36,113 nt of DNA from a virus. Below the pieces are notes generated by a model. The model was not told the origin of the DNA. It saw nothing but the letters and a program-made list of their open reading frames with translations, and searched no databases. The DNA lies in the IMG/VR virus record IMGVR_UViG_3300048777_000064, positions 1 to 36,113 of that record. The stretch is one strand, 5' to 3'. Each line of letters starts with the position of its first letter. Position 1 is the first letter of the stretch. Of this stretch, positions 4,862-6,060 are shown in pieces. Both the position numbers and the translations under genes were made by a program.

Positions 4862-4936
4862 ATGGAATTTCTCGAATTTCCCAAGATCGCTCGACTGAGC
4901 CGGGAGTGCGTCATCACTGAGAAGCCACCTTCTTGA
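4862..4936 (+). pseudogene. 5' stub of the RNA ligase gene, cut at the catalytic lysine
   Basis: A strong AGGAGG box and ATG at 4862 begin 21 codons that match the start of the RNA ligase at 5418 (18 of 21 residues identical), reaching the motif I lysine of ITEK. The frame then leaves the ligase sequence and stops after three foreign codons. The stub uses the GC-rich codons of this genome. It is best read as the original ligase start, severed when the HNH endonuclease gene was inserted. It may still be translated into a 24-residue peptide. Confidence 0.85.
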
Positions 4937-4966
4937 TATCTTGGGCATTTGGTCCATACTTGTGTT

Positions 4967-5440
4967 ATGGAAATTACCCTGAAGTGCCCCAACTGCCAGA
5001 CTGTAGCCACCCGTCAATATCGTGGCCAGGCCCCCAGATTTTGCTCCGATAAGTGCAGGATGGGGCATTGGGTTACAAACAACCGCGAAAAGCTAAATGC
5101 AAATGTCCGCAAATATAGGGCCAAAAGATACAAAGAAGACGGATCCTGGTTGGATAAAAGCCCCAAATCATTAGAGTTAAGGGCATGGATGATTGAACTA
5201 AAATCTAAACCATGCCATGACTGTGGCAATTCATTCCCCGTGTGCTGCATGGACTTTGACCACAGGGGGGATGACCCTAAAGAATTCAACATCGGCTCAA
5301 TGTTTGCTCATCATTATGGGAGATCTCTTATTGAACAAGAAATAGCGAAATGCGATCTTGTGTGTGCTAACTGCCATAGGATCAGGACCAGAAACCGAAG
5401 AACCGGAGGTGGCAAAAATGGAATTCCAAGAGTTCCCTAA
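4967..5440 (+). CDS. HNH endonuclease inserted in the RNA ligase gene (probable homing endonuclease)
   Basis: This 157-residue protein has an N-terminal zinc finger (CPNC near residue 7 and CSDKC near residue 27), a basic linker, and a C-terminal HNH nuclease domain: CHDCG, the MDFDHR motif, and a KCDLVCANCHRIRT end carrying the last catalytic and zinc ligands. I chose ATG 4967; a TTG at 4949 is in frame. The DNA from about 5070 on is more AT-rich than its neighbours (codons AAA, ATT, TTA), a sign of transfer. The last 23 bases overlap the start of the downstream ligase. Free-standing HNH genes of this type are homing endonucleases that cut an unoccupied allele. The spare non-coding DNA (about 60 bases) is too short for a group I intron. 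Confidence 0.9.
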   Translation: MEITLKCPNCQTVATRQYRGQAPRFCSDKCRMGHWVTNNREKLNANVRKYRAKRYKEDGSWLDKSPKSLELRAWMIELKSKPCHDCGNSFPVCCMDFDHRGDDPKEFNIGSMFAHHYGRSLIEQEIAKCDLVCANCHRIRTRNRRTGGGKNGIPRVP

Positions 5441-5954
5441 AATAGCTAGATTATCCAGAGAGGCAATAATCACAGAAAAAATCGACGGCACCAACGCCCA
5501 GGTCTACATCACCGAGGACGGGCAGATCCACTTTGGCTCCCGCACCCGCTGGATCACTCCCGAGGATGACAACTACGGCTTCGCCCGCTGGGGTATGGAG
5601 CACCGGGAGGAACTACTCCATCTTGGCGAGGGTCGTCACTACGGGGAGTGGTGGGGCGCTGGCATCCAGCGTAAGTATGGGATGACCGAGAAACGATTCA
5701 GCTTGTTCAACGTGTCCCGCTGGGATAGTGAGGACCGCCCCGCTTGCTGCTGTGTGGTACCGACCCTCTACCGGGGCGACTTCATTAATGATGCCGTGAC
5801 GGCTGCGCTGGAAGGACTCAAGGCGAACGGGAGCAAAGCCGCGCCGGGGTTCATGAAGCCTGAAGGGATCGTGGTCTACCACACCGCAGGGCGCATGTAT
5901 TTCAAGAAGACCATCGAGAAGGATTCCGAACCGAAGTCCCGGCAAATTGCCTGA
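5418..5954 (+). CDS. RNA ligase (Rnl2-like nucleotidyltransferase domain)
   Basis: This 178-residue protein has the ordered motifs of ATP-dependent RNA ligases: motif I KIDGTN with nucleophile Lys21, SR at residues 41-42, YGEWWG near 75-80, FSLFNV near 94-99, motif IV EGIVVY at 149-154 and motif V FKK at 162-164. It is the adenylyltransferase domain only; T4 Rnl2 is about 334 residues with an extra C-terminal domain. Phage RNA ligases typically repair tRNA nicks made by host defence nucleases; here that role is inference. Start ATG 5418 has GGAGG nine bases upstream, inside the HNH gene. Its first 21 codons are AT-rich and recoded relative to the stub at 4862, while codons from motif I onward return to the GC-rich genome style. 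Confidence 0.9.
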   Translation: MEFQEFPKIARLSREAIITEKIDGTNAQVYITEDGQIHFGSRTRWITPEDDNYGFARWGMEHREELLHLGEGRHYGEWWGAGIQRKYGMTEKRFSLFNVSRWDSEDRPACCCVVPTLYRGDFINDAVTAALEGLKANGSKAAPGFMKPEGIVVYHTAGRMYFKKTIEKDSEPKSRQIA

Positions 5955-5990: not shown

Positions 5991-6060
5991 ATGACCTTTG
6001 AACGAGTTGAAATTGGGAGCGCCACCCTCTACTTGGGGGACTGCCGAGAAATTCTACCAG
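5991..6060 (+). pseudogene. N-terminal remnant of a DNA methyltransferase
   Basis: The first 23 codons read MTFERVEIGSATLYLGDCRE and ILP, the typical opening of N6-adenine/N4-cytosine DNA methyltransferases (the LGDC segment precedes the catalytic DPPY loop). No DPPY or later motif follows. Around 6060 the frame turns into unrelated sequence, while a sensible protein continues in another frame. It looks like a deletion fused a methylase start to the end of another small gene. Confidence 0.6.

Follow-up and report, generated by a model that had tools for sequence, protein, structure and literature searches.

The closest described counterparts of the locus reported here are the mORFs of fungal mitochondria, which carry foreign C-termini and are known from atp6 of Allomyces and from atp6, atp9, cox2 and nad3 of Glomus (PMC3630166). 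In Glomus atp6 the native terminus is 91% identical to that of a relative, while the two copies of the terminus are only 63.5% alike (PMC3630166). Among phages, mobE in nrdA of Aeh1 and mobA in gene 60 of T4 are split-gene homing endonucleases whose host enzymes are made as two polypeptides (PMC2988022). Free-standing HNH genes also lie between genes, as in T4 mob, lactococcal Skunavirus (PMC12724721) and cluster J mycobacteriophages (PMC3706429).

The window analyzed here is a stretch of 36,113 nucleotides of viral DNA (IMG/VR record IMGVR_UViG_3300048777_000064), in which an HNH gene interrupts an RNA ligase gene. As in the mORFs, an endonuclease gene has invaded a protein gene, supplying a foreign terminus in frame and leaving a native leftover that matches relatives; however, mORFs affect the C-terminus, encode LAGLIDADG or GIY-YIG endonucleases and are mitochondrial (PMC3630166), whereas the window unit affects the N-terminus, encodes an HNH protein and resides in a phage. 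The unit thus works like an mORF but is not one. Like mobE and mobA (PMC2988022), it comprises a free-standing HNH gene that lies, with no intron, where a phage enzyme gene is functionally critical; unlike them, it restores the severed end, and the window ligase is encoded as a single full-length polypeptide. The intergenic phage HNH genes resemble the window gene in their small products, sporadic presence and fixed locations, and differ from it in that the latter lies inside a coding region (PMC12724721, PMC3706429). Neither a terminal-replacement case in phages nor an N-terminal case anywhere was found in the open-access literature searched. By function, the unit would be an HNH homing element whose principle is known from fungal mORFs, the N-terminal phage version being the new part.

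Organization of the Ligase Locus

The ligase was assigned to PF09414 (RNA_ligase, E=1.5e-15) and PHROG 548, and gave a weak sequence match to T4 Rnl2. Its first 21 codons occur twice with the HNH gene in between (Table 1), and the counts given in the initial annotation, 18/21 identical residues and 40/63 identical bases, were exact. The upstream copy, provided with a strong SD sequence (AAGGAGGTCATATG), encodes MEFLEFPKIARLSRECVITEK and, as had been described, ends at the motif I lysine and then stops, the reading frame closing with PPS and a stop codon at 4934. The second copy, MEFQEFPKIARLSREAIITEK, runs on as IDGTNAQ... to 5954, and the restored ligase contains the KxDG motif I together with all downstream nucleotidyltransferase motifs. 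The extent of the HNH gene, which overlaps the replacement start, refines the layout first proposed.

Table 1. Features of the interrupted RNA ligase locus, in window coordinates.
Feature	Position	Strand	Basis
24-codon stub, remainder of the native ligase start	4862..4934	+	21 ligase codons to motif I Lys, then PPS and stop; matches L009
Inserted unit (linker, HNH gene, replacement ligase start)	4925..5480	+	Missing in L009, L002, L003
Linker, promoter-like	4933..4966	+	TTGATA-16-CATACT, ending 6 bases 5' of HNH ATG; 9/12 consensus matches
HNH endonuclease gene, 157 aa	4967..5440	+	PHROG 3106, alignments, AlphaFold model
Ribosome-binding site CGGAGGTGG of restored ligase, within HNH coding region	5404..5412	+	Sequence
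Replacement ligase start to motif I lysine; 23-base overlap with HNH 3' end	5418..5480	+	41/63 bases to L009
Native ligase body (IDG onward), read from replacement start	5481..5954	+	RNA_ligase PF09414, dN/dS, motifs

The GC content was 51% in the stub, 35% in the replacement start, 60% in the ligase body and 46% in the HNH gene. The contrast in codon style suggested earlier was thus evident between the AT-rich replacement start and the body, but the stub is only moderately GC-rich. The inserted unit as a whole has a GC content of 45% versus 60% for the window, and is its most AT-rich 556-bp stretch among 712 positions sampled.

Identification of the Native Ligase Start

A search of 2.9 million viral contigs returned three uninterrupted ligases (L009, L002 and L003) showing 90-93% identity to the window ligase. 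In all three, ATYGACGG directly follows GAGAAG, the L009-type empty-site sequence being GAGAAG-ATCGACGG, and this contiguity places the insertion exactly at the motif I lysine, as had been proposed. Compared with L009, the stub matched at 21/21 residues and 56/63 bases and the replacement start at 18/21 residues and 41/63 bases, with identity resuming at codon 22, precisely where the return to native ligase had been located. Since the uninterrupted relatives match the stub and not the second copy, the upstream stub is the native start and the second copy is foreign; by the same comparison, 4925-5480 is an insertion carrying its own ligase start, acquired after the split from L009. The initial annotation had also considered two old, separately inherited ligase genes, but the relatives have one uninterrupted gene.

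Relative to L009, dS was 0.50 for the stub and 0.61 for the ligase body, and the dN/dS of the body was 0.06, while synonymous sites of the replacement start were saturated against L009, L002, L003 and the stub. As the dS values of stub and body are similar, most of the divergence would be older than the insertion. The restored ligase gene is, as far as its codons tell, intact and under selective constraint.

Some further features of the surrounding window were recorded. Positions 5991-6057 encode a DNA methyltransferase-like start (MTFERVEIGSATLYLGDCREILP) broken off after about 23 codons; because Rhizobium phage RHph_Y1_10 has a whole methylase gene after its ligase, this start may be a deletion remnant. 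Two pentapeptide-repeat genes (4-906 and 985-1800) have the same leader (MPPSHGASSLIHPSPITWGFDPRSS) and represent a recent duplication. The hexamer TGTCCA stands just 3' of stop codons between small genes (4263, 4516, 4833, 5958 and 6196) and also near the ligase genes of L009 and L002, with no over-representation in the whole window.

Sister Units in Other Phage Contigs

The three nearest IMG/VR relatives of the HNH protein (L082, L083 and L084; full-length identity of 54-57%), which belong to different phages, were all found at the same RNA ligase codon as in the window. Their common plan consists of a native stub to motif I, a promoter-like linker, the HNH gene and a replacement start fused to the ligase body, and in all four units the last 63 bases form an in-frame ligase start with conserved protein sequence. 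The L082 stub shared 52/63 bases with the empty relative L169 and its replacement start 40/63; for L084 compared with the empty relative L316 the values were 56/63 and 41/63, respectively. A close empty relative was not found for L083, whose stub has lost the lysine codon and ends in AAT. Together, the empty-site relatives and the recurrence of this unit, at an identical codon, in three other phage contigs bear out the earlier proposal of a mobile endonuclease that brings along a start-to-lysine cassette.

Examination of 307 ligase loci, some of which repeat a contig, showed the unit in four contigs only, window included. The four stubs scored 61-90 in matching the N-terminus of their own ligase, against 42 for the best chance upstream match (299 ligase loci). 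The four HNH proteins form one clade with a support of 0.97, and divergences among the four units are similar for the HNH protein (57-66%) and the ligase body (52-60%). As the units come from four separate metagenomic contigs, an assembly artefact is very unlikely. At L255:2896-2964 the last HNH codons abut the ligase start with no stub, which looks like a decayed unit retaining an HNH 3' remnant. The four units are, on these comparisons, a family of elements that lack an intron and make good the lost end of their host gene.

A profile search of genome contigs with the four HNH proteins yielded no confirmed relative, and a single-sequence search returned 45 HNH relatives, none with a convincing terminal duplication. 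No interrupted ligase was seen in cultured phages, where the best HNH match was 35% over most of the protein.

The HNH Protein and the Linker

The middle gene matched PHROG 3106, an HNH endonuclease family, with E=4.7e-25, and alignments identified an HNH nuclease domain with the conserved His/Asn/Cys residues. The AlphaFold model (pLDDT 86.6) predicts an N-terminal zinc-ribbon-like part, a long helix and a C-terminal HNH domain; the zinc-ribbon cysteines are absent from the L084 protein. Model residues 71-155 gave the best structural alignment with the HNH nickase 4h9d (Z 5.4), and T4 endonuclease VII scored Z 3.4. As the top structural neighbours are mostly HNH nucleases, the model offers weak but consistent support for the fold; a PDB sequence search with the HNH profile gave no match. 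The gene occupies one exact site and is missing from that site in close relatives.

A sigma-70-like promoter sequence (TTGAtA/TTGACA, 16-17 bases, CATAcT/CATAAT) occurs in the linker of all four units. Compared with shuffled sequences, the number of consensus matches out of 12 was 9 in the window (P=0.02), 9 in L082 (P=0.04), 11 in L083 (P=0.001) and 10 in L084 (P=0.0025). In three of the four units the -10 box lies 6 bases 5' of the HNH ATG, a leaderless layout, and the sequence TTTRGTCCATAMT is present in three units and nowhere else among 457 loci. These signals suggest that the linker serves as a promoter. In the window, in L083 and probably in L084, the ribosome-binding site of the restored ligase falls within the last part of the HNH gene.

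Divergence of the Two Ligase Starts

The initial annotation had regarded the replacement start as recoded. Base identity between stub and replacement was compared with that of natural ligase pairs matched for protein identity. The window pair, 40/63 against an average of 48.9, was more diverged than all 202 comparison pairs; however, L082, L083 and L084 (41, 38 and 41 of 63 bases, against natural-pair averages of 37.0, 38.4 and 43.4) were ordinary, and recoding beyond expectation was rejected as a general rule. The simpler reading is that the replacement cassette is a foreign or long-diverged allele. The recoding is not clearly selected, but the divergence still has a consequence: exact matches between the window stub and replacement start do not exceed 8 bases in length, which makes removal of the unit by recombination of the two copies improbable. 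The sequence of the occupied junction differs from the empty site.

A Mirror Image at the 3' End of a Ligase Gene

When the other HNH loci were scanned for duplicated ends, most matches were of low complexity or tRNA-like (L105, L140 and L418), the exception being L104. At L104:2333-3390 a more distant HNH gene (42% over the shared part) adjoins an RNA ligase gene at its 3' end in the order replacement C-terminus, HNH gene and native C-terminal leftover, the latter fused to the HNH frame. The working ligase ends in LLEGDELHKWQQS*, the HNH reading frame in ENDEIHKWEVTQ* and the uninterrupted relative L390 in LLENDEIHKWETK*; the leftover ENDEIHKWE shares 25/27 bases with L390 and the working C-terminus 19/27. 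The L104 HNH falls outside the clade of the four N-terminal HNH proteins, and the nearest relatives of its ligase are mostly found on contigs of about 112 kb.

L104 is a phage C-terminal counterpart of the mORFs. Because it mirrors the N-terminal units, the terminal-replacement strategy arose, as these alignments indicate, at both ends of the same ligase family; as only one locus is involved and its duplicated segment is short, L104 weighs less than the N-terminal family. Two other arrangements were observed: in L105 and L140 tRNA-like repeats apparently flank the HNH genes, and at L307:3632-3946 an HNH gene overlaps a ligase 3' end with no leftover terminus seen.

Proposed Mechanism and Alternative Explanations

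We consider it highly probable that the unit belongs to a terminal-replacement type of free-standing HNH homing endonuclease element, which re-supplies the ligase end that it severs. The endonuclease probably cuts ligase alleles at EK^IDG, beside the conserved codons of motif I, after which an occupied allele would serve as the template for repair. The insertion severs 21 ligase codons, for which the last 63 bases of the element encode an equivalent start; as this start is in frame with the body and has its own ribosome-binding site, one continuous and presumably active ligase would be made. The promoter-like linker would transcribe both the unit and the restored ligase. The two copies would be too diverged for recombination to excise the unit readily, and the junction, which no longer matches the empty site, would protect the occupied allele from its own endonuclease.

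A self-splicing intron containing the HNH gene would fuse stub (TEK) and body (IDG), the second start being incidental. Joining 4924 to 5481 would indeed restore the native ligase exactly, and HNH genes are common in phage introns. However, no group I or group II family was matched around the HNH gene in Rfam at either gathering or relaxed thresholds, and some 40 bases remain for a ribozyme once the HNH gene and the cassette are accounted for. A second in-frame start would be unneeded in an intron, yet its protein sequence is conserved in all four units, and the lysine codon lost from the L083 stub also speaks against splicing. The intron that the initial annotation had raised as a counter-explanation did not emerge at sequence level, and we regard it as very improbable.

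An HNH gene lying upstream of another phage's ligase might instead have arrived by ordinary illegitimate recombination, with no homing and with the old start left behind, and in three of the four cases the replacement starts do resemble ordinary diverged ligase alleles. This appears unlikely, since insertion at one and the same codon in phages of four different backgrounds, together with the mirror-image L104 case with its related HNH, indicates site-specific cutting; the original capture of the cassette may have occurred by illegitimate recombination. That the stub is a functional small peptide or a leader regulating the ligase, and not a leftover, would agree with its strong SD sequence and its 21 conserved residues, but in relatives these codons are a plain ligase start, and their conservation fits a recent insertion, given the comparable dS of stub and body, which makes such a role extremely improbable.

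Implications

Survival of a homing endonuclease in important coding sequence is generally considered to depend on an intron, an intein, an intergenic site or an enzyme that still works when split. The terminal-replacement units suggest a further route in phages, in which the endonuclease carries a spare end of its target gene, and this spare end would explain how an endonuclease gene can be located at an enzyme's most conserved codons. The chances seem evenly balanced that phages carry a whole class of intron- and intein-free homing elements in coding regions, which re-supply the severed end at either terminus and whose own promoter takes over expression of the host gene, the element then being lost only at the expense of that gene. 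Genome annotation would be expected to reveal short "duplicates" of gene starts or ends next to HNH genes, and in the unit homing, self-immunity and loss of the element could be tested on a small system.
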